Assembly: GCA_024645045.1 (NCBI GenBank)
Contig: JAHEGO010000011.1
Coordinates: 1 to 36,667 of the forward strand
Source: Sphingobacteriaceae bacterium
Lineage (GTDB): Bacteria; Bacteroidota; Bacteroidia; Sphingobacteriales; Sphingobacteriaceae
DNA: 36,667 nucleotides
Direction: 5' to 3'
The notes beneath the pieces are model-generated. The model ran no database searches, was not told the origin of the DNA, and saw only the letters and a program-made list of their open reading frames with translations. The translations under genes and the position numbers were made by a program. Numbering within the stretch: the first letter of the stretch is position 1; every line of letters begins with the position of its first letter. Of this stretch, positions 2,355 to 19,901 are shown piece after piece.

Positions 2355-3188
2355 TTAATTGGGTAAGTATTTAAAGTTTTTAATAATTATTTCATGTGCT
2401 TGATTATTAGTTGGAGCCGCTCCATTGAGTAACCAAAAATTAAACCTGATATTTGTTGAATCTCCAGGAGCAGGTATCACCATTGGATCGGAAACTCTGT
2501 TCCCTTCAATTTTAGATCTACTTTTGTTGTTCTTGGTAAATACATGGTGAGATAATCGCTGTGTTCCAAAAACACTTTCACCAGCAAAGCTTTCCCATAC
2601 AATGCTATCAGGTGTCCATTGCATTGAATAGGTACAAGTAGCTGCATTGTATTTTGTTGGAATGAAAGGTTTATGCGTGCGCTCTTCGTAGGGTGCTGGG
2701 TTGCTGAAAATAACAGGTTGTACACTATAGGTTACCGGTAAAGTGTCATTTGCATTTCCCCATTTTGCAAATTCAATATCCACTTCGGAGTTCCCAGCTT
2801 TTTGGAACGAATAGTCATCCCAAGTAAAAAAACCAAACACTGTCATTGGATCGAAATTTCTTATATCGCTTAGACATGTTATTTGATAGGTACCATATCC
2901 AAATCTTTTGGTGCTGATGATTTCACTGCATTGCCAAAATCCATTTTTTTGTTGAATTTTTAAATGTAATTGATTTTGTGAATCAACCCATGCCGCAGTA
3001 CTGTCACCTAAAAACCTATTGGGTCCAGGTCCTACAGGTGTGGGTTTGTTTTTATAATTAAAATAAAAGCCTGAAAAATAAAGGTCGCCTTTTTCCTCGT
3101 ATAAACTTGAAGGAGCGGATTGCTCGCATCCATAGCCTATAAGGATCAAAGTAAATAAACCCAGTATGTTTAATTTTTTAATTGACAT
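2355..3188 (-). CDS. GH16 family beta-glucanase, lipoprotein
   Basis: A glycoside hydrolase of family 16 (jelly-roll endo-beta-glucanase). From the chosen start the product has about 277 residues with a lipoprotein signal (LILIGYGC), placing it in the outer membrane or on the surface. The catalytic signature reads SEVDIEFAKW: the two Glu of E-x-D-x-E are the nucleophile and acid/base. This E-x-D-x-E spacing (no beta-bulge) is the form known from lichenases and xyloglucan endotransglycosylases; laminarinases and agarases usually have E-x-D-x-x-E. I chose the ATG at 3188 because it starts a compact signal peptide (MSIKKLNILG) and follows an A-rich AAAAAGAATAT stretch. An upstream in-frame ATG at 3206 would add six residues and lengthen the overlap with the GH3 gene from 11 to 29 bases. 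It should cut beta-glucan into oligosaccharides for the GH3 enzyme. Confidence 0.88.
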   Translation of the reverse strand: MSIKKLNILGLFTLILIGYGCEQSAPSSLYEEKGDLYFSGFYFNYKNKPTPVGPGPNRFLGDSTAAWVDSQNQLHLKIQQKNGFWQCSEIISTKRFGYGTYQITCLSDIRNFDPMTVFGFFTWDDYSFQKAGNSEVDIEFAKWGNANDTLPVTYSVQPVIFSNPAPYEERTHKPFIPTKYNAATCTYSMQWTPDSIVWESFAGESVFGTQRLSHHVFTKNNKSRSKIEGNRVSDPMVIPAPGDSTNIRFNFWLLNGAAPTNNQAHEIIIKNFKYLPN

Positions 3189-5421
3189 ATATTCTTTTTG
3201 TTTCATTTTGAATCATTAAATCAAATTCGCCTGCTTCCGTCACTCTTTTCAATTGCTTGTTTATGAAGGATAGGTCTTTTTTATGAATTTGAAATTGGAT
3301 GTTTTTTTGTTCACCAGCCCTAAGGTATATTTTTTCAAATGCCAATAATTTTTTAACGGATGGAGTAATACTCGCAACTAAATCAGCATAATATAATTGT
3401 ACAACTTCTTTGCCAGCTACATTGCTATTGTTTTTTACTTGCACATTTACTGTAATCGAATCGTTTGAACCAAGTGTATTTTTTGAAATCGCGAATCCAC
3501 TGTAAACAAAGTTGCTGTAGCTTAATCCAAAGCCAAAATCAAATGCAGGTCTGTAGCCATTATTGCTAAAATCTGTGTGCATATCTTCTGCATGCTTATG
3601 GTCGTAATGTAATATATTATTTGCATCAGAAGGGTAGCTAAAAGGTAGTTTACCACTTGGGTTGGTTTCGCCATAAATAACAGATGCAATTGCTTTTCCG
3701 CCTTCATCACCTGGTAAGTAAGCATATAAAATTGCATCAGCAAATGGGATAATGTTTTTTAATATCCTAGGTCTATTGAAAGTACAAACCACAATTATAG
3801 GTTTGTTTAATTTACTCAAAGCAATTACTAAATCTTCTTGTGCTTTAGGTAAATATAAATTGTCAATATTTCCAGGAATTTCAGTTGATGGAGTTTCTGC
3901 TAAACAAATAATAATCTTATCTGCATTTTTTGCTTTTACAATACATTTTGCATAATCATCAGCAACATCAATACTTGAACCTAAAGCATAGCTCACATTT
4001 TCTTTACCTGCGTATTGTTGAATTGCTGCAAGCGTTGTCAATTTGTTTTTGGTATTGAAATTTGTATCAACGCCTTGCCAAGTATGAGTCCAAGCGCCAT
4101 TTAAATAATTTAAACTATTTGCACCTGGTCCACAAATAAATATTTTTTCGTTTTTATGTAATATAGGAAGTGTTTGATTTTCGTTTTTCAAAAGTGTAAT
4201 ACATTCGTTTGCCACCGCCAAACTTTTTGCAGCATGCACTTCAGAACCAAATAATGGATACGTAGTTTTTGTGTCTAAACCATCAAACAATCCTAATTCA
4301 TATTTCAAGTTTAATATTCTATAAACTGAACTATCAACTCTACTCATTGGGATACGACCTTCATTGATTAGTTCAATTAGTAGTTCTGTAAATTGATAAT
4401 CATTGGGAGTCATGCTCATGTCTATACCCGCCATGATAGCTTGATATACCGCTTCTTTTTTATTAGCAGCCACACGGTGCATATCTACTAATTTATAGAT
4501 GTCTTCCCAATCTGTTACTGCCACACCTTTAAAACCTAATTCATTTCTTAGTAATGTGGTTAAAATATCATAGTTTGCATGAACAGGTGTTCCATTTATT
4601 TCAGCAGAATTAATCATGATGGTTTTTGCACCTTGCTGAATAGCTGTTTGAAAAGTTGGCAAATAATATTCGCGCATTTCTCGTTCAGACATCCAAATTG
4701 GGGTTCGGTCTTTACCGCTCAATGGCATGCTGTATCCTAAGAAATGTTTCATGCAAGCCGCTACATGGTAAGGGCTATATTTATTATCTCCTTGAAGGCC
4801 GCTAATTGCGGCTACTGTCATTTTATTGGCTAGTAATACATCTTCGCCAAATGTTTCAAAGAATCGAGACCATAATGGTTGTCTGCCTAAATCTAATACT
4901 GGAGAAAAATTCCATGGTATGCCAGATGCTCTTGCTTCATATGCGGTTACCTCATAGCCTTGCTTAACTAATGTAGGGTTCCATGTTGCAGCTTGTGCTA
5001 TTTGTTGAGGGAAAAGGGTAGCTCCCATGGTATAATTATTTCCATGAATAGCATCTATACCATAAACGATAGGAATTTGTAACCTCGTTTTTTGAGTTTC
5101 TTTTTGAATGCTTGAAAAAATAACTGACCAGTTAGACCTGCTAATGGTGCCACTGCCACATCCAACATTTAAAAAAGACCCGATATGGTATTTTTGAATT
5201 GCTTTGCTCAGTTTTTCTTGGTTGATCGATTGCGGTTGCGTTAAATTACAAATTTCTCCATTAGCAATAACGCCAAGATCAAGCTGTGTCATTTCGCCAG
5301 CTTTTTCTTCAACAGACATTTTATGAATTAATGCATAAAGGTCAACTTGTTTTTTTTGCGCAAAAGTATTTGCACTCAAAACCAACAAACAACCTAAAGT
5401 AAAATGCTTCAATCTAATCAT
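3178..5421 (-). CDS. Glycoside hydrolase family 3 beta-glucosidase
   Basis: 747 residues with a signal peptide (about 1-22, ending ANTFAQ), so periplasmic or exported. It has the full GH3 layout: a TIM-barrel domain with IPIVYGIDAIHG, CMKHFLGY and the nucleophile region GFKGVAVTDWEDI (Asp304), then the alpha/beta sandwich domain (LLKNENQTLPIL, PTSEIPGNIDN, LPFSYPSD) and a C-terminal fibronectin-III-like domain (NVAGKEVVQLYYAD). Length and architecture are typical of bacterial BglX-type enzymes, which release glucose from the non-reducing end of beta-glucan oligosaccharides. It starts one base after the CBM-like lipoprotein gene ends, and its 3' end overlaps the GH16 start, so it is clearly in the same operon. 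The exact linkage preference cannot be read from sequence. Confidence 0.95.
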   Translation of the reverse strand: MIRLKHFTLGCLLVLSANTFAQKKQVDLYALIHKMSVEEKAGEMTQLDLGVIANGEICNLTQPQSINQEKLSKAIQKYHIGSFLNVGCGSGTISRSNWSVIFSSIQKETQKTRLQIPIVYGIDAIHGNNYTMGATLFPQQIAQAATWNPTLVKQGYEVTAYEARASGIPWNFSPVLDLGRQPLWSRFFETFGEDVLLANKMTVAAISGLQGDNKYSPYHVAACMKHFLGYSMPLSGKDRTPIWMSEREMREYYLPTFQTAIQQGAKTIMINSAEINGTPVHANYDILTTLLRNELGFKGVAVTDWEDIYKLVDMHRVAANKKEAVYQAIMAGIDMSMTPNDYQFTELLIELINEGRIPMSRVDSSVYRILNLKYELGLFDGLDTKTTYPLFGSEVHAAKSLAVANECITLLKNENQTLPILHKNEKIFICGPGANSLNYLNGAWTHTWQGVDTNFNTKNKLTTLAAIQQYAGKENVSYALGSSIDVADDYAKCIVKAKNADKIIICLAETPSTEIPGNIDNLYLPKAQEDLVIALSKLNKPIIVVCTFNRPRILKNIIPFADAILYAYLPGDEGGKAIASVIYGETNPSGKLPFSYPSDANNILHYDHKHAEDMHTDFSNNGYRPAFDFGFGLSYSNFVYSGFAISKNTLGSNDSITVNVQVKNNSNVAGKEVVQLYYADLVASITPSVKKLLAFEKIYLRAGEQKNIQFQIHKKDLSFINKQLKRVTEAGEFDLMIQNETKRIYVN

Positions 5422-5422
5422 T

Positions 5423-6064
5423 TTATAATTTTACAATTTTAATATCATCTAAATATATATCGCCGTCACCTTCTAACTGAATAATAAATTGTTTTACTTT
5501 TTCTAAATCGAAATTTTTAGATTTAAAGTCAAAGTTTTTCAGTGGAATGGTTACAGTTGTCCATGTTTCATTGTTGAATTCGCCTGAAGCTAAAGCCATT
5601 TGAAACCCATAGTAACTTTGAACGCCCGAATAGTCTTCAAAAGCAAAAGCCACTGGAAAATTTTTAAAATTACCGTTGGCAGATTTTACTTTCATTTGCA
5701 CAGCACAATCTTCGCTTACATCTAGCATGTCTTTTGCCATCCAGCTATTCCAGCCAAAGCCTATGCCAATCCACTTACATCCACCTGCAATTTTATCCCA
5801 TTTTACTTTCAGACCTGATTTTCCACTGTAAATATTTGTTTTTTCTGCACTTAAGCTTACGCAATTTCTTTCAGGTGAAACCCATACACTATTGTCATAA
5901 TCATCAATGAAAATATGGGTTGCTTTAAAGCCATTAATTTCATCTTTTGAATTTTGTACGTCATTGTCATACAAGGATTTTTCTTGAACGGAAACAATCG
6001 TTTTGCAAGAATGCAATGTAATTGCAGTTATAATTAAAAAAGATATTTTAAAAAACTTGCCCAT
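5423..6064 (-). CDS. Lipoprotein with CBM11-like galactose-binding-fold domain
   Basis: 213 residues. A lipoprotein signal peptide ends at Cys20 (ITLHSCKT). The rest resembles a single jelly-roll, galactose-binding-like domain (roughly residues 45-212) with the strand patterns SGKSGLKVKWD, CAVQMKVKSANG, TWTTVTIPLKNFDF and a closing GDIYLDDIKIVKL. That closing DDI strand is typical of CBM11/CBM30-like and related domains at the ends of Bacteroidota glycanases. No catalytic residues are evident. Its start codon overlaps the stop of the preceding lipoprotein gene by one base. Role inferred: outer-membrane-anchored beta-glucan-binding protein, comparable to the surface glycan-binding proteins of Sus-type systems. 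The family assignment is by visual pattern only. Confidence 0.75.
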   Translation of the reverse strand: MGKFFKISFLIITAITLHSCKTIVSVQEKSLYDNDVQNSKDEINGFKATHIFIDDYDNSVWVSPERNCVSLSAEKTNIYSGKSGLKVKWDKIAGGCKWIGIGFGWNSWMAKDMLDVSEDCAVQMKVKSANGNFKNFPVAFAFEDYSGVQSYYGFQMALASGEFNNETWTTVTIPLKNFDFKSKNFDLEKVKQFIIQLEGDGDIYLDDIKIVKL

Positions 6065-7068
6065 TATAAGTCGATTGCTGTGTTTTGAGTAAATGTAATC
6101 AAGTCAATTTTACACCTTGCAAAACCTAAATTTGGATCTGCTAATTGCAAGAATGAAATCTTACTAATCTTGTCTGGGTTGTGTTGCTTGTTCCCATTAG
6201 GGCTTGCAGGGTTTCCATTAACTAATGTAACTATGTCTGCATATTTTACGGATACCAATCTCCAGCCAGTCCAAGTTACATCAATGCTATAATCATATTC
6301 ATCTTCTTTGGTGCCGTCAAATACGCCATCACCATTTTCATCCTCTTTAAATTGAAATAATGCTTTGGTTAAGTTTGTAGATGGGTCACCATAAATTAAC
6401 ACATTGAAGTATTCATTTTCAGGATTTGTTGAAAAAGGGAATGTAACGTTGTTCTGATAAGCCCTAGCGTTAAAATCCACTAAGCCAATTAACCAATCCC
6501 AATTCACAGTTCCGCCCATGTTTAAATATTTGTTTCCTTCAGGTGCAAAGTTGTCAGATTTTACAATGCATTCCATTGCTGCGCCAGATTGAAAAAATTT
6601 AGTCCAGTTTGGATCAAGACCATTTTCAAAATTCGCAATCATCCTTGCACCGGTAGGTAATGGTTTTGTTTTTGAAATTGCCAATGTTGTACTTGCACTA
6701 TCGTTTTCGCTAGCAATTAATAAAGTAGCCGTGCAGTTTTCTGTTTTGAACAAAGGAAATATAGAAGTAGAACCATTCCAGGTAGCATTTGTTGCATCAA
6801 TTACTTTGCTTTCGCCAGTAATAATTTTAGTGGCTTTAGAAATAGATCCTTTGATGGTGATTTTCCAAGAAACAATTTTATTGAAACGTGCAGTAAAAAT
6901 TGCATTGCTAGTTTCAAAGTCCGCGCTTGTTTTGTTAACCTTAAATGGCTCAAGAATGGTAAATTTGCTATTGATCTCGTTGATGCTTGGTCCTTCAAAA
7001 GCATTTTCTTTTCTGCATGCGCTCAATCCAACGGAGATAAAGCTGATGATAAGGAGTGTCTTTTTCAT
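6064..7068 (-). CDS. Surface lipoprotein, Ig-like plus CBM-like domain
   Basis: 334 residues with a lipoprotein signal ending at Cys18 (SVGLSACRKE). An N-terminal Ig-like stretch (about 35-130, with alternating strands such as WKITIKG and TATLLIASEND) leads into a C-terminal domain opening GARMIANFENGLDPNW and closing FARCKIDLITF, a pattern seen in jelly-roll carbohydrate-binding modules. Residues 243-251 (DENGDGVFD) form an EF-hand-like calcium loop. No enzyme motif is seen. The overall plan (lipid anchor, Ig spacer, distal binding domain) resembles surface glycan-binding or SusE/F-type proteins, but I do not recognise a named family. It lies between the beta-barrel genes and the second lipoprotein, with one-base gaps or overlaps on both sides, so co-expression is near certain. 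Confidence 0.75.
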   Translation of the reverse strand: MKKTLLIISFISVGLSACRKENAFEGPSINEINSKFTILEPFKVNKTSADFETSNAIFTARFNKIVSWKITIKGSISKATKIITGESKVIDATNATWNGSTSIFPLFKTENCTATLLIASENDSASTTLAISKTKPLPTGARMIANFENGLDPNWTKFFQSGAAMECIVKSDNFAPEGNKYLNMGGTVNWDWLIGLVDFNARAYQNNVTFPFSTNPENEYFNVLIYGDPSTNLTKALFQFKEDENGDGVFDGTKEDEYDYSIDVTWTGWRLVSVKYADIVTLVNGNPASPNGNKQHNPDKISKISFLQLADPNLGFARCKIDLITFTQNTAIDL

Positions 7069-7069
7069 A

Positions 7070-8797
7070 TTATAGTAGAATATTATAAATTAAACCAAAT
7101 TGATTGATTTTAAAATCAGCCATTGCTTTATCGTTTACAGTAGATAAATCTTGATAGCTGCTTTGTTGAAGCATTGCGCATAAATAGGCTTTAGGGCTAA
7201 AATTAATTCTTAAACCAACTGCTGCAATTTGTTGTTTTAATTGATAGTTGCTAGATCTGAAATAAGTAACTTCTGCATATTCATTTCTTTCGGTAATGAA
7301 ACTGTTTCCATTATTTCTTTGCTGTACAAAGCCCGCTAATATTTCAAAATCAGGGATCAATTCATATTGAATTCCTGCACTGTATTGAATGTTTTTTAAG
7401 TCAATGTTTTCGACAGCAAATTCGCTTTCTCTAGTTGTTTGTTGTAAGCGTATTCCTAATTGTAATCCTAATTTCTTGTTAAAGCCAATCAAATTATGAA
7501 GTGGAATATTGGTGTTTAATTTTAGTTGACGAAAAGCCTTAAGGGCTAACGAGCCTTGCCCTCTAATCTCATTTAATTGATATAGCTCGGCTTGAAAACT
7601 TAAATTGTTTTTGGTTTGTGTTTGTAGTTTAGCATATGCACCCACTCTGTTAAAAGTTGCTAAGCCAAATGGTAAAATGTCATTGAATAATTCGCTTTCA
7701 GCAGCTAAGGTGCTGCCAATTGTTTTGTTGTAAATATGCTCATTCCCAATCATATCAATTAAAGTGATTGGTCTTAATTGTTGGTTATTCGTAAAACGAT
7801 TAAAAAATACAGTAGGAGCGTTATAATTTACGTCTTTGCTTTGTGCGCCAATGCTTCTAAAGTCTGGCCCTACGTTTAAATATCCTAAGCTGATGTTCGC
7901 ATTAAATCTTGGGATGTATAATTTTGCATAAGCATGAACAAAATAATCATTCAAAACTGGTGCAAGTGTATCTTCTGAATAATTCCAATTACTAAATCCT
8001 GCTTCACCTGCTATACTCAAGGTGTTTCGTGCTATTGAATGGTTAAGCTTCCAGTCAAAAGTATGTATGGTATTATTAAATAAATTATTATTAGCAGTTG
8101 TAGCTTTTAAATCAAAAGTACGATTGATAGTATAACCAAAACTCAATTGGTTGCTTTGAACAATATTGATATTGCCACCAGTCATTAGCCTTTCATTTAC
8201 ATTCGCAAAGTTGGTTGCATTAAGTCTGGTTATAAAACCATTGAAATTGATTTCTTTTAAATATTTTGCAAAGGTTAAACCAAAATCAACATTTGCACCT
8301 TGCATTCTCCAGGTGTTATTTTGATAGAATTGCTCGTAAGAAACAATATTTTGTTGTAGTCTAAAAATACTAGGTAAAGAATCTAAACGGTCTGCATGAT
8401 GATTGTATAGTGTAAATGGAGATTGTTTTAAATTCAAATCACCAATTTGATACCTAATGGCATTGCCAACAACGCCTTTTACCCAAAGCTGTCTCACGTC
8501 AAACTGCACACCTGAACCCCAAAAGCCACCATAATTATTTTTGATACGAAACATCCCCATAATTTCGGTTTGTTTGTTTGGTTGAATATTGAAACCTAAA
8601 TCAATTAGTGCGTAACCACCATAGTTATTTTTTGCAGTAGTAGTATCTGGTAAGGTATCGGTAACATTTAGCGAATTGCTAAACACCGACGAGCGCGCTC
8701 CTCCAACAAAACTTAGCTTTCTTGCTTTTTGGGAATACCCTTGCATGCTAATCAAAGCAAACATCATCAGCAATATTGTTTTTCTATTCATCATCAT
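7070..8797 (-). CDS. Outer-membrane beta-barrel protein, unknown family (second barrel)
   Basis: 575 residues with a signal peptide (about 1-23, ending ISMQGYSQ). The mature protein is made of alternating amphipathic strands with aromatic girdle residues and short Asn-rich turns throughout (for example TFDWKLNHSIARNTLSIAG and LSFQAELYQLNEIRG), as in a large outer-membrane barrel. There is no carboxypeptidase-like domain, no TonB box or plug and no SusC signature, so it is not a TonB-dependent transporter. It ends in LIYNILL, with hydrophobic alternation typical of a last strand. Two other barrel-consistent stretches are near 90-115 and 440-460. It is the third gene of the glycan operon, 26 bases after the first barrel gene and one base before the lipoprotein gene. 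A porin or structural partner role is inferred; function is unknown. Confidence 0.75.
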   Translation of the reverse strand: MMMNRKTILLMMFALISMQGYSQKARKLSFVGGARSSVFSNSLNVTDTLPDTTTAKNNYGGYALIDLGFNIQPNKQTEIMGMFRIKNNYGGFWGSGVQFDVRQLWVKGVVGNAIRYQIGDLNLKQSPFTLYNHHADRLDSLPSIFRLQQNIVSYEQFYQNNTWRMQGANVDFGLTFAKYLKEINFNGFITRLNATNFANVNERLMTGGNINIVQSNQLSFGYTINRTFDLKATTANNNLFNNTIHTFDWKLNHSIARNTLSIAGEAGFSNWNYSEDTLAPVLNDYFVHAYAKLYIPRFNANISLGYLNVGPDFRSIGAQSKDVNYNAPTVFFNRFTNNQQLRPITLIDMIGNEHIYNKTIGSTLAAESELFNDILPFGLATFNRVGAYAKLQTQTKNNLSFQAELYQLNEIRGQGSLALKAFRQLKLNTNIPLHNLIGFNKKLGLQLGIRLQQTTRESEFAVENIDLKNIQYSAGIQYELIPDFEILAGFVQQRNNGNSFITERNEYAEVTYFRSSNYQLKQQIAAVGLRINFSPKAYLCAMLQQSSYQDLSTVNDKAMADFKINQFGLIYNILL

Positions 8798-8823
8798 ATT
8801 AAATCTCTTTTAAAGCGCCTTAT

Positions 8824-10743
8824 TTAAAAAAACATTTTTACTTCGACAGTAGTTTCAAAACCTTTGTATTGGTCGTTTGTGTAGCTACTATCTTTATAAT
8901 TCATCCAGCGTTGTCTAATGTATAATCCCGCCGATTTGCTTAATTGAATATCTAATCCAGTTGCAAAGCTGTAGCCAGTTTGATTCTTAGGCCTACTGCT
9001 TTGAACGTCAACTGCTGTTTGGTAATTCGCAATGATTCTTTCAAAACTGAAATAGTTATTCCAAATCAATTTAGGATTCAATACATAATAAGATTCTATT
9101 TGGTGGCAATAGTTTCTTAACAAAGCACGCTCAGTGAAAACCAGCACGCCACCATCCTTCATGCTCGTAAAACTCGAGAAATTTTGCACCGAATTAAACG
9201 ACCCTAAATAAAACAAATACAAATCTTTATTTGCTAAAATGGTTTTGTATTTAGAATTGATTTCGATGCTATTGAAATATTTTTTTTGATTAGGTAATCC
9301 TGTAGTGGTATTTAAATCAGTAATATTTAAAGTTTCAAATACATTGCGGTAAATTTTATTTAAGTTTTTGTATGGACCAACATTACTTGGAAAACCCCAT
9401 CTCCAAAACCTAGATAGTGCTAAACTGTTAAAGGCATGTGAGTAGGTGATACTAGGTGATAGGTTTTCCAACTCAACAGAAGAGCTATAGCCAATTGAGT
9501 TTTTCAATCTTCCAATATTAATTTGCGAATTAAGTTCAACGCCTTGTCTGTTATTCGCCAATTGACCAATTGGTAAAACAGCACTGCTCACTGGAATTAA
9601 AACGGCTTGCGTCTGGTTTGAGTTGGTTGCAATTGTTTGTTGAATTGAAGAGTTGATGAATATTGCATTATTGTTAAATACGCGAGGGCTAACTCTGTAA
9701 AAGTGAAGTTCAGTAGGATATTTACCTGCTAAAGGGTAAGCTAATTTCACAGAAATTGCTTCGCCCCATTTGCTGTTTATCTGGTTAGATTGAGTGTTAC
9801 CCATTCCAACTTCTGCCCATATTTTTAGTCTATCAATAAAGTGCGTAAGTTCTAAAGTGTGAATTGTAAATCCTGTTGTGTTTTTCGAAAGCGTATCGAG
9901 GTAAGTAGTATTACTAAAAGTGTTTACAGAAATTGCATTCTGATGTTGATGGTAATATTTAGTAAGTCGACCACCATTTGAATTATTTGGCAATGCTAAA
10001 ACGCCACCATCAAATTGTGTTTTTCCATTCATTAAACTAAATGAAAAATCATTTGGTAATTGTGCGCCGTCAACAATTAAACCTTGAAAAGCTTGGTTTC
10101 CCCAGCGTTGGTCTTGGTTGATGGCACCTGAATTAAAAAAGTCAGAATACCTAGTATCCATAGAAGCTGTATTTGGGTCCCAAGGATTTCTTTCAAATAA
10201 ACTGTATCTGTTATATCCTTTGTTTGATTGAAAGGTGAAAGGTGAAAGCATGTGCCAATTGATACCGCCAGTCCTAATATTAAATGTACCAAATGATGTA
10301 TTGAAGTTCCCAAATAAATTTACACCAAGGTTAAGACCTTTAACATTTTCGGATCCGCCCATGCCTGTCATTGGAGCCCACATAAACAAATCTGTTCCAA
10401 AAGAAGTTTTACTGGAAGCAAAGCCTTTGAGGTTTAGCATTAATTGTGGAATCTGACTATCATCTCCTACAAAAACATTTCTGGTATTGTTTACTAAATG
10501 CGGATAGCTCACGGCTAAATCTCTGTAATTAGTAATGAAACGATAGTAGCCACTTACTTCTAAACCTTCTAAAACTTCTTGAGGTGTTTTAGGAAAAACT
10601 CCTTGAGGATTTGTTTCGTTCAACAGATTAGTTAATGAACTATCTGGTTTAATTTTATGCTTAATTTCAAAAGCACTAGCAGTACTAGCCAGGCTCAGAC
10701 TGAGTATGCTTGCGAATAAAATATTTTTTTTAAATCGCTCCAT
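8824..10743 (-). CDS. Outer-membrane beta-barrel protein, porin-like (first barrel)
   Basis: 639 residues with a signal peptide (about 1-24, ending ASTASA). After a short N-terminal segment (QGVFPKTPQEVLEGLEVSGYYRF, split by the start of the first strand) the protein is a long series of beta-hairpins rich in Asn, Phe and Tyr. It ends FETTVEVKMFF, and the terminal Phe is the classical outer-membrane assembly signal. The GYYRF opening strand and the conserved loop WHMLSPFTFQSNKGYNRYSLFERNPW resemble general or substrate-specific porins more than TonB-dependent receptors; no plug domain is present. It follows the glycosidase gene with a one-base gap. Inferred role: passage of beta-glucan oligosaccharides across the outer membrane, possibly with the neighbouring barrel. 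I do not recognise a named family. Confidence 0.75.
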   Translation of the reverse strand: MERFKKNILFASILSLSLASTASAFEIKHKIKPDSSLTNLLNETNPQGVFPKTPQEVLEGLEVSGYYRFITNYRDLAVSYPHLVNNTRNVFVGDDSQIPQLMLNLKGFASSKTSFGTDLFMWAPMTGMGGSENVKGLNLGVNLFGNFNTSFGTFNIRTGGINWHMLSPFTFQSNKGYNRYSLFERNPWDPNTASMDTRYSDFFNSGAINQDQRWGNQAFQGLIVDGAQLPNDFSFSLMNGKTQFDGGVLALPNNSNGGRLTKYYHQHQNAISVNTFSNTTYLDTLSKNTTGFTIHTLELTHFIDRLKIWAEVGMGNTQSNQINSKWGEAISVKLAYPLAGKYPTELHFYRVSPRVFNNNAIFINSSIQQTIATNSNQTQAVLIPVSSAVLPIGQLANNRQGVELNSQINIGRLKNSIGYSSSVELENLSPSITYSHAFNSLALSRFWRWGFPSNVGPYKNLNKIYRNVFETLNITDLNTTTGLPNQKKYFNSIEINSKYKTILANKDLYLFYLGSFNSVQNFSSFTSMKDGGVLVFTERALLRNYCHQIESYYVLNPKLIWNNYFSFERIIANYQTAVDVQSSRPKNQTGYSFATGLDIQLSKSAGLYIRQRWMNYKDSSYTNDQYKGFETTVEVKMFF

Positions 10744-10744
10744 C

Positions 10745-12085
10745 TTATTGGTTGAAATTAGTCATGTCTGTATACTTAAACTCAATGAATTTTCCTTGAG
10801 GTTCACCTGCAGTTCTTGGAATTACTTTAAATGGAATGTTTGCGTATGCCATTTTGTTTTGATAGGTAACAGCAACAAATAATCTGTATGCGCCTGCGTT
10901 TTGAGGAGCTCTAAATTTTATTTGATTTTTACGAGCTGTTTTTTTGGTCAACCCAGTTAATTCGGTTGCTGCATCTTCTAAATCTCCACCAGATTTTTTA
11001 TCGGTGCTTTCTTCCATTATTCTCCAGCTAAAATTGGCTTTATCAATACTGGCATTCCCAGCAAGTTGAATAGCGATATTTGCATCGAAAATAGCAGATG
11101 CTTTTAATTCAATGTTGTCTGTAGCTTTCTTTTGATCAACTTGAAAGTTTAAAATTGTTGGAGCGGGGTTTTGTATCACTTTGCCTGTAAACACCTCTTC
11201 CAATGCGTCAATTGGCTCAGTTGGGATATTATTTTTCGAAAATAAGCCATACCAAGTTTCGGTGTATTCTTGTTTTGCTCCCCATAGAAAAGCATAAGAA
11301 CCCAAGCAGGTATTGCTATTAGGAGCTATGTAATTTTTATATCTATTGTAATAAACTTCTTTTTTCTCGGTGCTATTTTGTTCAATTGAAACTCCCCATT
11401 TAGTTTGAGGTGACTCCCAATGGCCATTTGGCCCCCATTCTGTAATCATATATGGGCCTGTCCATCCAAATTTTACAATGTTTGTTGGAACATTTCCAAT
11501 GTCACCATAAGTATTAACAGAATAAATATCAATATCTGGACAGCGTGCTTTGATAAGGTCTACCTCTAAAGAGTCTAACCCAGCGGTAACGGTACTGGTA
11601 GGGTGATTTGGGTCTGTTTCGTGAATATATTTAGCAATATCTTGAATCGCATACCAAACATTGGTATTGGTGTAGTTTAAATCAACTTCATTACCTACAC
11701 CCCAAATCAACAAAGCGGGGTGGTTTTTAAAACGGTCAATTACTGTTTTAAAATAAGCCAATTGTTTGGCTACTTTTTCTTTGTTATTATAATCGAATCC
11801 GTGTCTTTCATGTTGTACCCATAAACCTAGCATAACAGTAAGACCATTTCGTTGTGCTTCGTCTAATACTACTTGTGCACGCTCAACACCCCATGTTCTA
11901 ATAGAGTTAGCGCCTATGGCAACAATTTTATCCATATTCACATCGCCGCCAACACCTTTGATGTAGTATGGTTTTCCATCTCTTAGTAATTCAAAACCAG
12001 TATTGTTTTTTCTTACAATAGTTTGTGCATAGTTTGAAAAACTAACCAATAAAATAAGACTTAGAAATATTATTTTTTTATTCAT
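10745..12085 (-). CDS. TIM-barrel glycosidase, GH158/GH2-like (probable beta-glucanase)
   Basis: 446 residues. A signal peptide (about 1-20, SFSNYAQ) is followed by a TIM barrel (about 25-300) with clan GH-A motifs: NSIRTWG (61-66), HPALLIWGVGNEVD with acid/base Glu133, and YMITEWGPNG with nucleophile Glu216. A C-terminal Ig/beta-sandwich domain (about 310-440) follows. Short GH2-type TIM-barrel proteins are often annotated this way. The size, the two-domain plan and the 83-residue gap between the catalytic Glu residues also fit my memory of GH158 endo-beta-1,3-glucanases; a database search is needed to decide. It is the first gene of the operon and ends one base before the porin-like gene. 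The start ATG lies a few bases after a TATATTTG -7-type box. Confidence 0.8.
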   Translation of the reverse strand: MNKKIIFLSLILLVSFSNYAQTIVRKNNTGFELLRDGKPYYIKGVGGDVNMDKIVAIGANSIRTWGVERAQVVLDEAQRNGLTVMLGLWVQHERHGFDYNNKEKVAKQLAYFKTVIDRFKNHPALLIWGVGNEVDLNYTNTNVWYAIQDIAKYIHETDPNHPTSTVTAGLDSLEVDLIKARCPDIDIYSVNTYGDIGNVPTNIVKFGWTGPYMITEWGPNGHWESPQTKWGVSIEQNSTEKKEVYYNRYKNYIAPNSNTCLGSYAFLWGAKQEYTETWYGLFSKNNIPTEPIDALEEVFTGKVIQNPAPTILNFQVDQKKATDNIELKASAIFDANIAIQLAGNASIDKANFSWRIMEESTDKKSGGDLEDAATELTGLTKKTARKNQIKFRAPQNAGAYRLFVAVTYQNKMAYANIPFKVIPRTAGEPQGKFIEFKYTDMTNFNQ

Positions 12086-12358
12086 GCTTAACCAAATATA
12101 ACATTAAAAATTATAAAAATGTATGAAATACACTAAGTAAATATTCTACTTTTTAAATCAATGAAAATCAGTGTTTTAGTGTTATTATTAGTCAAATATT
12201 GGCGCTTAGACGATCAAAATGAAACTTTCCTTCGATTTTTATTTTTCTAGGCAAAATTTCTATAACTTAAATTTAACAGCCAAGCAAGGCATCTTGTTTT
12301 TTTATTCTTAATTTAATATCAAATAAAATATATTTACAATTCAATCAATAAAAAAAAG
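12086..12358. other. Divergent intergenic region between glycan operon and sugar transporter
   Basis: 273 AT-rich bases between divergent genes, with no ORF or RNA gene seen. The minus side has the TATATTTG box at 12093-12100. The plus side has only a near-match, TATATTTA, at 12329-12336, about 22 bases before the transporter ATG. No clear dyad operator was found by eye. No regulator gene (AraC, hybrid two-component or ECF sigma/anti-sigma) is next to the operon within the window, so how it is controlled is open. Confidence 0.5.
12093..12100 (-). promoter_or_regulatory. Candidate -7 box (TATATTTG) for the glycan operon
   Basis: On the minus strand the sequence reads TATATTTG, an exact match to the Bacteroidota TAnnTTTG element, seven bases before the ATG at 12085. 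No good TTTG -33 partner is seen about 19 bases further upstream, and a start site this close would give an almost leaderless message. Low confidence; the true promoter may lie further up in the 273-base divergent gap. Confidence 0.3.
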
Positions 12359-14032
12359 ATGCAAAAAAACAATGATTCAACTGCTGCAAGAATGCAAGCA
12401 ACAAATTATGGTGCGTTGAGCACTTTAATTACGGTATTTTTCTTCTGGGGTTTTATTGCCGCAGGGAATGGTGTATTTATTCCATTTTGTAAAGACTATT
12501 TTCAACTCGATCAATTTCAAAGTCAATTAGTCGATTATGCATTTTATGTGGCCTATTACATTGGCGCCTTGGTAATATTCATGATTAGTAGTGCAACAGG
12601 TAAAGACCTTGTAGGTTCTTGGGGTTATAAAAAAAGTATTGTTTATGGTTTATTGTTTAGCGCAGTTGGTGCAATTGCAATGATTATTGCCGTTAACGCA
12701 AATACTTTCTCAGGAATGTTAGTAGGACTTTTTATGGTTGCGTTGGGTTTTAGTTTGCAACAAACAGCAGCAAATCCATTTGCAATTTCTTTAGGAGATC
12801 CAGCTACTGCAACAGGGAGGATATCTTTGGGTGGTGGAATCAATAGTTTTGGTACCATGATTGGTCCAATCATTGTTTCTCTATTGTTATTTGGGACTGC
12901 AGCAGCAAGTGAAGAACAAACCAAAAGTTTAGGATTAAACAATGTGAGTTTTATGTATGCTGGGGTAGGCGCACTTTTCTTAGCAGCGGCAGCATTATTT
13001 AATTTTAGTAAAAAAGTACCAGCAGGTTTAAATATTGAAAAACAAGAGCCAGCAAGTAAAGCATTAAATATTTTATTAGTCATTACAGGGCTATTGATTT
13101 TTATGTTCGTTCCTGTATTCAAAAGTTATGTTGGTTTAAATTCCAACTTATCTATAGATGCTCAATACGATTTAGAATTATATCGATTCAAATGGTTGTT
13201 AGGTGCGCTATTTGTGATAGTATTTGGAATGTTGTATGCATTTCAATCTGCTAAGAAAAATGCACATGGTTGGGGCGCAATGCAATACCCACAATTGGTT
13301 TTAGGTATGTTAGCCATCTTTACTTATGTTGGTGTGGAAGTTGCAATTCAAAGTAATTTAGGCGAATTATTAAAACAAGATTATATGGGAGGATTCGCTT
13401 CATCTCAAATTTCGCCATATATCAGTATGTATTGGGGGAGTTTAATGATTGGTAGATGGGCTGGAAGTATTAATGTATTTAATCTTTCTAATCAAATTAA
13501 ACGTTTATTGTTATTGGTAATTCCTTTATTAGCATTTGGAATCATTATTAGTGTAAATGTATTAGCGCAAAAAGACATGTCGCCACTTTATGCATATGTA
13601 ATTTGTGTAGCAATTTTAATTGCAGCATTTTTTATCAGTAACGACAAGCCAGTTAAAACACTTATAATTTTTAGTGCCTTAGGTATGGTTTCTATGTTGA
13701 TTGGGTTATTTACACAAGGACAAATTGCTATTTATGCATTGTTAAGTGGTGGGTTATGGTGTAGTATTATGTGGCCTAGTATTTTTAGTTTATCATTAGC
13801 GGGGTTAGGAAAATATACTACACAAGGTTCAGCATTTTTAGTGATGATGATTTTAGGTGGTGGCATTATTCCTCCATTACAAGGTAAATTAGCCGATATG
13901 ATTGGAATTCACCAGTCCTATTGGGTAACAGTAATTTGCTTTGCATATATCGCATTTTTCGCAATTGCTGTTAAAAGAATTTTAATTAAACAAGGTATCG
14001 AATACGATGCTCCTGCAACAAGCGCACATTAA
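12359..14032 (+). CDS. FHS-family sugar:proton symporter (MFS, glucose/galactose/fucose type)
   Basis: 557 residues, about 12 hydrophobic membrane segments. The N-terminal signature [22 protein letters not shown] ... [18 protein letters not shown] (the first run contains the typical FFWG and FIP residues) matches the FucP/GluP group of the major facilitator superfamily, as does [17 protein letters not shown] at about residues 134-150. It is roughly 120 residues longer than E. coli FucP, mostly in the central part around residues 230-330. These proteins import monosaccharides such as glucose, galactose or fucose with protons across the inner membrane. It is divergent from the beta-glucan operon, so import of released glucose is a reasonable inference; the gene could also serve general sugar uptake. 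It ends inside a strong hairpin terminator. Confidence 0.9.
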
Positions 14033-18165: not shown

Positions 18166-18969
18166 ATGGGTAAGATTATAGCGTTGGCAAACCAAAAGGG
18201 TGGCGTAGGGAAAACAACCTCATCTATAAATTTAGCAGCTAGTTTGGCTGTTTTAGAGTATCGCACACTTTTAGTGGACGCCGATCCTCAAGCAAATGCG
18301 ACCTCAGGAATTGGTTACGATCCAAGAGAAATTAAAGCAAGTATCTACGAATGCATCATCAATAGCGTTGAACCAAGAGATGCAATCTTATCGACACATA
18401 CGCCAAATTTAGATTTGTTACCTGCGCACATCGATTTAGTAGGTGCCGAAATTGAGATGATTAATTTACCAGATAGAGAACATAAAATGAAAGAGGTTTT
18501 TGCGAAAATCAAAGACCAATATGATTTTATTATCATTGACTGTTCACCTTCATTGGGTTTAATTACCATCAACTCTTTAACTGCAGCAGATTCTGTAATT
18601 GTTCCTGTTCAGTGTGAATATTTTGCATTAGAAGGATTAGGCAAATTACTCAACACAATAAAAATTGTACAATCTAGGTTAAATCCAAATTTGCAAATTG
18701 AAGGCATTTTATTAACCATGTATGATGTAAGGTTACGTCTGTCAAATCAAGTAGTAGAAGAGGTTAGGACACATTTTCAAGGATTGGTTTTCGATACCAT
18801 TATTCAAAGAAATACCCGTTTAAGCGAAGCGCCAAGTTTTGGTGTTTCAGTAATTATGCACGATGCTTCAAGTAAAGGTGCAATTAATTACCTCAACTTA
18901 GCAAAAGAAATTTTGCAGAAAAACGGATTAACAAAAGAAGAACAAAGCACCGATTTAAAAAATAATTAA
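18166..18969 (+). CDS. parA: Chromosome-partitioning ATPase ParA/Soj
   Basis: 267 residues. A deviant Walker A motif, QKGGVGKTTSSINLAASLA (Lys11-Thr18 core), stands at the N terminus, followed by LLVDADPQANATSGIGY and DFIIIDCSPSLGLITINSL (Walker B). This is the compact chromosomal ParA type without an N-terminal DNA-binding extension. It binds ATP, coats DNA non-specifically and moves ParB-parS complexes to segregate the chromosome origin. Its stop codon overlaps the parB start by one base (TAATG), the usual translational coupling of this pair. Confidence 0.96.
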   Translation: MGKIIALANQKGGVGKTTSSINLAASLAVLEYRTLLVDADPQANATSGIGYDPREIKASIYECIINSVEPRDAILSTHTPNLDLLPAHIDLVGAEIEMINLPDREHKMKEVFAKIKDQYDFIIIDCSPSLGLITINSLTAADSVIVPVQCEYFALEGLGKLLNTIKIVQSRLNPNLQIEGILLTMYDVRLRLSNQVVEEVRTHFQGLVFDTIIQRNTRLSEAPSFGVSVIMHDASSKGAINYLNLAKEILQKNGLTKEEQSTDLKNN

Positions 18970-19901
18970 TGAGTAGCGCAATCAAACGAAACGCTTTAGG
19001 TAAAGGACTTGGAGCATTATTAAGTGATAATGAAATTGTAAATCCTAAAAGTACAGGGTTGCCTCCAATTGTATCAGCTAATGCGAATAACAGTAGCATC
19101 GATACCATTTCAATTGAATTAATTGAAACTAACCCTTTTCAACCTCGCGATACTTTTGAGAATGAAGCATTGAAAGAGTTAGCGGAGTCGATTAAAGTTC
19201 AAGGCATCATTCAACCTTTAACCGTTAGGAAATTAGCAAATAATGCCTATCAATTGATTTCGGGAGAACGTAGGTTACGTGCTAGTAAATTAGCAGGTTT
19301 AACTCAAGTGCCTGTTTATATTCGAACTGCGAATGATCAAGAAATGTTAGAAATGGCATTGATTGAAAATATTCAAAGAGAAAATTTAAATGCCATTGAA
19401 GTTGCAATTTCTTTTCAACGCATGTTAGATGAGTGTAGCTTAAAGCAAGAAGAGTTAGGCGACCGTGTAGGAAAAAACAGGTCAACGGTTACAAATTATT
19501 TGAGATTATTGAAGTTGCCGCCAGTTATTCAGGCAGCACTTAGAGATGGTAAAATATCTATGGGCCATGCAAGAGCAATGATTTCTATGGATTCTATCGA
19601 TAAACAATTATATGCATTTGATGAATTATTAAAACAAGATTTATCAGTTCGTAAATTGGAAGATTTGGTTAGAAGCATGTCTGAAAAACACCTTACCAAT
19701 ACAGGCGAAAAAACTAAAAGCCCTGCAGCAAAAGCGGAGCAAGCTTTCTCTTCTGAATACCAAAGAATTCAATCAGACTTAGCAGCAAAATTTGACGCTA
19801 AAGTAGTTTTGAAGGCTGATAAAAATGGAAGTGGTAGCATTCAAATTCCATTTATGTCTACAGACGATTTGAACAGAATTTTAGAAATGCTTGATTGGTA
19901 A
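18969..19901 (+). CDS. parB: Chromosome-partitioning protein ParB/Spo0J
   Basis: 310 residues. An N-terminal basic tail (KRNALGKGLGALL, ParA-stimulating) precedes the ParB/Srx CTPase domain with IETNPFQPR (about 52-60), IKVQGIIQPL and the GERRLRAS box (99-106), then ALIENIQRENLNAIE. The helix-turn-helix domain follows (LGDRVGKNRSTVTNYLRLLKLP), then a linker and a C-terminal dimerisation domain. CTP-dependent clamp loading at parS is known for the family. The gene is followed closely by a DUF5683 protein, dapB and lepB, an order I recall as common in Bacteroidota. Confidence 0.96.
   Translation: MSSAIKRNALGKGLGALLSDNEIVNPKSTGLPPIVSANANNSSIDTISIELIETNPFQPRDTFENEALKELAESIKVQGIIQPLTVRKLANNAYQLISGERRLRASKLAGLTQVPVYIRTANDQEMLEMALIENIQRENLNAIEVAISFQRMLDECSLKQEELGDRVGKNRSTVTNYLRLLKLPPVIQAALRDGKISMGHARAMISMDSIDKQLYAFDELLKQDLSVRKLEDLVRSMSEKHLTNTGEKTKSPAAKAEQAFSSEYQRIQSDLAAKFDAKVVLKADKNGSGSIQIPFMSTDDLNRILEMLDW

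Follow-up and report, generated by a model that had tools for sequence, protein, structure and literature searches.

A probable SusC/SusD-independent beta-1,3-glucan utilisation operon and its conserved outer-membrane module in a Sphingobacteriaceae bacterium

Beta-1,3-glucan is a sugar of algae and fungi: how could it be taken up through a locus without SusC/SusD? The system taught for glycan uptake in Bacteroidota is SusC/SusD, and the finding of polysaccharide utilisation loci (PULs) is commonly anchored on that pair. The question is raised by an operon in the window analysed here, the whole stretch of 36,667 nucleotides on contig C69 of a Sphingobacteriaceae bacterium from a lake (genome of 1.83 Mb in 70 contigs). 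We consider it probable that this is a complete SusC/SusD-independent beta-1,3-glucan utilisation operon of the chu_1276-1280 kind of Cytophaga hutchinsonii, built around a conserved outer-membrane module, BAR1-BAR2-SGBP1-SGBP2. The gene content and ends of the operon, the absence of SusC/SusD, the conservation and order of the module, and the swapping of its partner enzymes were established in this study.

Gene content and ends of the operon

The operon comprises eight co-directional open reading frames (ORFs) on the minus strand, spanning 12085 down to 5. In reading direction they encode a glycoside hydrolase of family 158 (GH158), BAR1, BAR2, SGBP1, SGBP2, GH3, GH16 and a protein sorted by the type IX secretion system (T9SS). 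The spacing between successive genes is 1, 26, 1, −1, 1, −29 and 31 bases. The first-pass annotation had described eight tightly packed co-directional genes, and a spacing of −29 to +31 bases bears this out. The interval it gave, 2355–12085, holds seven of them, but the eighth, the T9SS gene, lies outside it at 5–2323. The glycosidases, lipoproteins and T9SS protein that it read from the sequence agreed with the family matches (GH158, GH3, GH16, lipoproteins resembling carbohydrate-binding modules (CBMs) and a CBM11-like T9SS protein).

The first gene encodes a GH158 endo-beta-1,3-glucanase with a signal peptide (10745–12085, minus strand, as are all operon genes). It aligned over nearly its full length with two solved GH158 chains, PDB 9oro (E 6.8e-88) and 6pal (E 7.2e-71), and keeps the motifs GNE at 131 and TEWGP at 215. 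Similarity to characterised GH158 and the presence of the conserved catalytic-type glutamates confirmed this predicted family assignment. The GH3 beta-glucosidase (BglX-like; 3178–5421) is full length, has a signal peptide I and three Pfam GH3-type domains, and is probably periplasmic; its match to the BglX model (E 1e-130) is below that model's cut-off. The GH16 lipoprotein (2355–3206; PF00722, E 1.6e-6, above the cut-off; EVDIEF at 141) is a probable endo-beta-glucanase.

Two further lipoproteins and the T9SS protein appear to bind glycan, although the CBM11- and CBM30-like similarities of the lipoproteins are partly below the Pfam cut-offs. SGBP1 (6064–7068), the positional equivalent of CHU_1278, has a CBM11-like C-terminal part (CBM_11, E 7e-4, below the cut-off). 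SGBP2 (5423–6064), the positional equivalent of CHU_1279, has one CBM30/CBM11/SGBP-B-like domain with CBM30 and SGBP_B Pfam matches, and its family profile matched PDB 2c24, 1wmx and 1v0a/6r3m. SGBP2 measures 213–218 aa (one domain) in the clade of the window and about 377–441 aa (two domains) in most other loci (L037–L040 compared with L042–L076). By eye, the second domain of these relatives is CBM9-like or CBM11-like. The T9SS-exported protein, the last of the operon (5–2323), has Por_Secre_tail and CBM_11 matches and consists in part of three near-identical tandem CBM11-like repeats of about 165 aa each.

No SusC/SusD was found in the eight-gene operon, which is therefore not a canonical Sus-type PUL. 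The first-pass annotation had left the bases to the left of position 1 to be checked for a susC/susD pair, and close relatives answer this point. In L002 and L004, loci of metagenome-assembled genomes (MAGs) from an uncultured bacterium and from Sphingobacteriales, BAR2 is 81–83% identical and all eight genes occur in order with a divergent gene of the major facilitator superfamily (MFS). In these two loci and L005, the T9SS gene is the last of the operon, a convergent subtilase-like gene follows, and no SusC/SusD lies beyond that edge. Because the relatives' operon ends in this way, a SusC/SusD pair past the left edge of the window is very unlikely.

Elsewhere in the genome there is a single SusC/SusD pair, on contig C44, and the operon could be part of an ordinary PUL served in trans by that pair. 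We regard this as highly improbable. The C44 pair sits beside a GH13 alpha-amylase and a T9SS protein with starch-binding-type/SusE-F-like domains. Moreover, the module is present in one to five copies in each of the ten genomes sampled from a small order (f12), and two Pfam models found no SusD match in any of them.

Conservation of the module and exchange of its enzymes

BAR1 (8824–10743, 639 aa) and BAR2 (7070–8797, 575 aa) are uncharacterised outer-membrane barrel candidates and the positional equivalents of CHU_1276 and CHU_1277, respectively. Searches of Pfam, NCBIfam and PDB sequences gave nothing convincing for either, and scans of viral contigs gave no match. The label "barrel" is a provisional one, taken from the signal peptide, from the protein length and from published work that places CHU_1276/1277 in the outer membrane. 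The first-pass annotation had described two barrels without TonB plug features; neither candidate has a Plug match, and the TonB-receptor profile also misses both. Alignment of BAR1 with BAR2 by hhalign (98.4%, E 7e-15) indicated remote homology, and the pair look like remote paralogues that a duplication might have produced, although some likeness is common among barrels of any kind.

The distribution of the module was surveyed in a sample of genomes, some of them incomplete. BAR2 homologues were found in 49 of the 395 class genomes (31 of 197 genera), in 74 of 199 genomes from the order of genome G532, and, beyond the class, in four other genomes of the phylum. A phylum-wide profile search gave at least 6/395 genomes, a lower bound because few candidates were scored per genome. 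Of the 59 loci read in detail, 58 allowed a test of the gene upstream of BAR2, and in 57 of these the next one on the same strand is BAR1; SGBP1 is the next gene downstream in 55 of the 56 that could be tested. The first-pass annotation had proposed a survey of this neighbourhood across Bacteroidota, and the order BAR1-BAR2-SGBP1 proved to be fixed. At the one exception to the BAR1 rule, L110, the ORF caller seemingly chose a shadow frame. GH158 is present in 37 of the 59 loci. The BAR2 copy of the window nests among other families in the tree, and the module was not found in the sampled genomes from the window's own order and family, which suggests a lateral gain or repeated loss there.

This synteny bears on a further reading, that the barrels are an unrelated housekeeping family placed in the operon by chance. 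In its favour, the candidates have no Pfam or PDB name. The module loci are spread over many families, mostly beside glycoside hydrolases, and the order is fixed (57/58 and 55/56), which contradicts chance placement and leaves it a negligible probability. The first-pass annotation had also allowed that the barrels might belong to a known unrelated family with constitutive expression; what was found instead is a fixed order with binding lipoproteins, almost always next to glycoside hydrolases.

The SusD profile recovered 19/20 in leave-one-out and the TonB-receptor profile 14/17, and both recovered the C44 control. Over the module loci, the SusD profile found no SusD, and the TonB-receptor profile gave one clear match, which lies at the L112 edge, together with a match in L126 that is marginal at 14 bits.

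The enzymes next to the module are exchanged between copies. GH9 versions (L069, L075), versions with GH18-type and glucosamine-6-phosphate isomerase-type (NagB) genes (such as L116–L121), GH97 and GH13 versions (L113, L114) and GH3 versions (L071, L072) occur, and other copies have GH158 with GH3; Pfam was run on representative loci, and the remaining genes were named by sequence likeness. The BAR2 tree clusters the copies by partner enzyme. From their enzymes, the substrates would be cellulose (GH9), chitin (GH18 and NagB), starch (GH13/GH97) and beta-1,3-glucan (GH158/GH3/GH16). In f12, paralogous copies (L113–L122, L069, L075) each stand beside different hydrolases.

Comparison with known systems and the proposed route

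Of the known systems, the nearest is the C. hutchinsonii cluster chu_1276–chu_1280, described as an "atypical PUL" for cellulose and also present in C. aurantiaca and Sporocytophaga myxococcoides (PMC12016534). It encodes two outer-membrane proteins, the SGBP-like CHU_1278 and CHU_1279, and an endoglucanase, and cellulose activates its genes jointly (PMC12016534). The genes chu_1276, chu_1277, chu_1279 and chu_1280 are important in the use of cellulose, and the SusC/SusD homologues are not (PMC12016534). The first-pass annotation had offered the operon as a Sus-independent design. This cluster is already a known example and the design is widespread, both of which that annotation missed.

The window and chu_1276-1280 have in common two outer-membrane-type genes (the location being predicted for the window), two genes for glycan-binding lipoproteins, of which the second is SGBP-B-like and CBM11-like, a glycoside hydrolase, and the absence of SusC/SusD from the locus. 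They differ in that GH158, GH3, GH16 and a T9SS binding protein replace the cellulase, SGBP2 has one domain, and a divergent MFS gene is present. Since the enzymes of the window are a beta-1,3-glucan set and not a cellulose set, the operon is a variant of that system and not the same system. Published descriptions of this kind are limited to cellulose and three species, but it is apparently phylum-wide. The GH9 loci L069 and L075 have the gene order of chu_1276-1280. Their SGBP2 (380 aa; CHU_1279, 375 aa) has aromatics at all six positions probed by mutagenesis, namely 89, 92, 180, 255, 258 and 349, against 89, 92, 180, 253, 256 and 343 in CHU_1279.

In its enzymes the operon resembles the beta-1,3-glucan utilisation locus 1,3GUL of Bacteroides uniformis, which has GH16, GH158, GH3, an HTCS regulator and SusC/SusD (TBDT and SGBP-A) (PMC7157763). 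The two share GH16, GH158 and GH3 and an extra glycan-binding protein that is not SusD (PMC7157763). The window has the BAR1/BAR2 module where 1,3GUL has SusC/SusD, and the HTCS regulator is a feature of 1,3GUL. By this analogy, the operon looks like a 1,3GUL with its importer exchanged. Marine laminarin clusters without susCD, such as that of an NS4 MAG, likewise have laminarin-type enzymes and MFS carriers (PMC10108472). Unlike the window, they are often built on GH17-MFS fusions, and the parts of that account available to us describe no barrel module (PMC10108472). A literature search joining GH158 with porin returned no paper.

We propose that the glucan would be held and cut at the cell surface by the T9SS binding protein, SGBP1, SGBP2 and the GH16 lipoprotein. 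Oligosaccharides or glucose would cross the outer membrane via BAR1 and/or BAR2. GH158 and GH3 may complete digestion behind the outer membrane, probably in the periplasm, and the divergent MFS carrier would import glucose. The first-pass annotation had suggested a Sus-independent outer-membrane route; the absence of SusC/SusD and the fixed module with its hydrolases agree with it, but the role of the barrels as oligosaccharide carriers is putative.

A rather unlikely alternative is that the barrels and lipoproteins serve as a scaffold at the surface, arranging both binding and the surface enzymes, while import proceeds via unrelated general porins or TonB receptors. In its favour, CHU_1279 is still required after damage to its binding (PMC12016534), and other TonB receptors are present in the genome. 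A pure scaffold leaves the poor growth of chu_1276 and chu_1279 mutants on low glucose unexplained (PMC12016534). The title of the paper on chu_1276 ties that gene to glucose uptake, and copies of the module are paired with genes of inner-membrane sugar carriers, both of which speak against a pure scaffold.

Several observations weigh against import through BAR1 and BAR2 as proposed above. Loss of CHU_1277 alters surface enzyme activity, which would be compatible with a scaffold. Of the 17 Plug matches in the genome one is SusC, and any of the remaining ones might act in trans as an oligosaccharide importer. AlphaFold2 models of BAR1 and BAR2, made from 4 input sequences, reached pLDDT 25 and 27, too low to inform on the fold, and the barrel fold is a putative one. 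A crude count of amphipathic strands exceeded shuffles for BAR2 and hardly for BAR1. The predicted structure of CHU_1276 retrieves TonB-dependent transporters (PMC12016534), and for this reason we only infer that the barrels are TonB-independent. The window barrels would be linked to CHU_1276/1277 via the GH9 loci: they are ~30% identical to the barrels of the GH9-linked clusters, which are treated as counterparts of the CHU proteins on the strength of their gene order and the residues of SGBP2. Finally, SusD is present in 35 of 53 module genomes versus 68 of 198 in the class sample, so there is no overall depletion. These counts led us to reject a simple anticorrelation in which the module replaces SusD; full absence is confined to the f12 order.

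A broader proposal is that BAR1-BAR2-SGBP1-SGBP2 is a second general glycan importer of the outer membrane in Bacteroidota, plug-less and existing alongside SusC/SusD. Duplication would have given copies aimed at beta-1,3-glucan, cellulose, chitin and starch, and in some lineages the module would take the place of SusC/SusD. We hold the arguments for and against this to be evenly balanced. If it is true, many PULs have been overlooked, those of freshwater laminarin users included (module without SusD, 49/395; 74/199 in one order). The C. hutchinsonii cellulose cluster, so far a puzzle, would gain a general meaning, and two new outer-membrane families would be offered for structure solving.

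Neighbouring genes and regulators

Upstream of GH158 lies a divergent intergenic region of 273 bp (12086–12358), presumed to be the site of the operon promoter. It contains one TAnnTTTG box toward GH158, which is a motif match only. On its other side, a divergent glucose/galactose-type MFS transporter gene is encoded on the plus strand (12359–14032; gluP/fucP models, below cut-offs). Related MFS genes adjoin the module in L002, L004, L037, L038, L039, L042, L045, L076 and L128, and SSF or MFS carriers often adjoin modules elsewhere. The divergent MFS protein is likely the inner-membrane partner of the operon.

Different regulator genes stand near the modules. NrtR-type NUDIX regulators directly precede GH158 in many of them (L047:3283–3990, L050, L064, L126 and others; Pfam was run on L047 only). 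In other modules the regulator gene is divergent and encodes a Reg_prop/LuxR-type protein about 960 aa long (L053 by test; L055, L063 and L068 by likeness). Outside the class, genes that appear LacI-like by eye precede the module (L109:5070–6083, L111:4904–5947). In the window, a parA-parB-like pair, recognised by eye at 18166–19901, is close to the operon, which is possibly near the replication origin.
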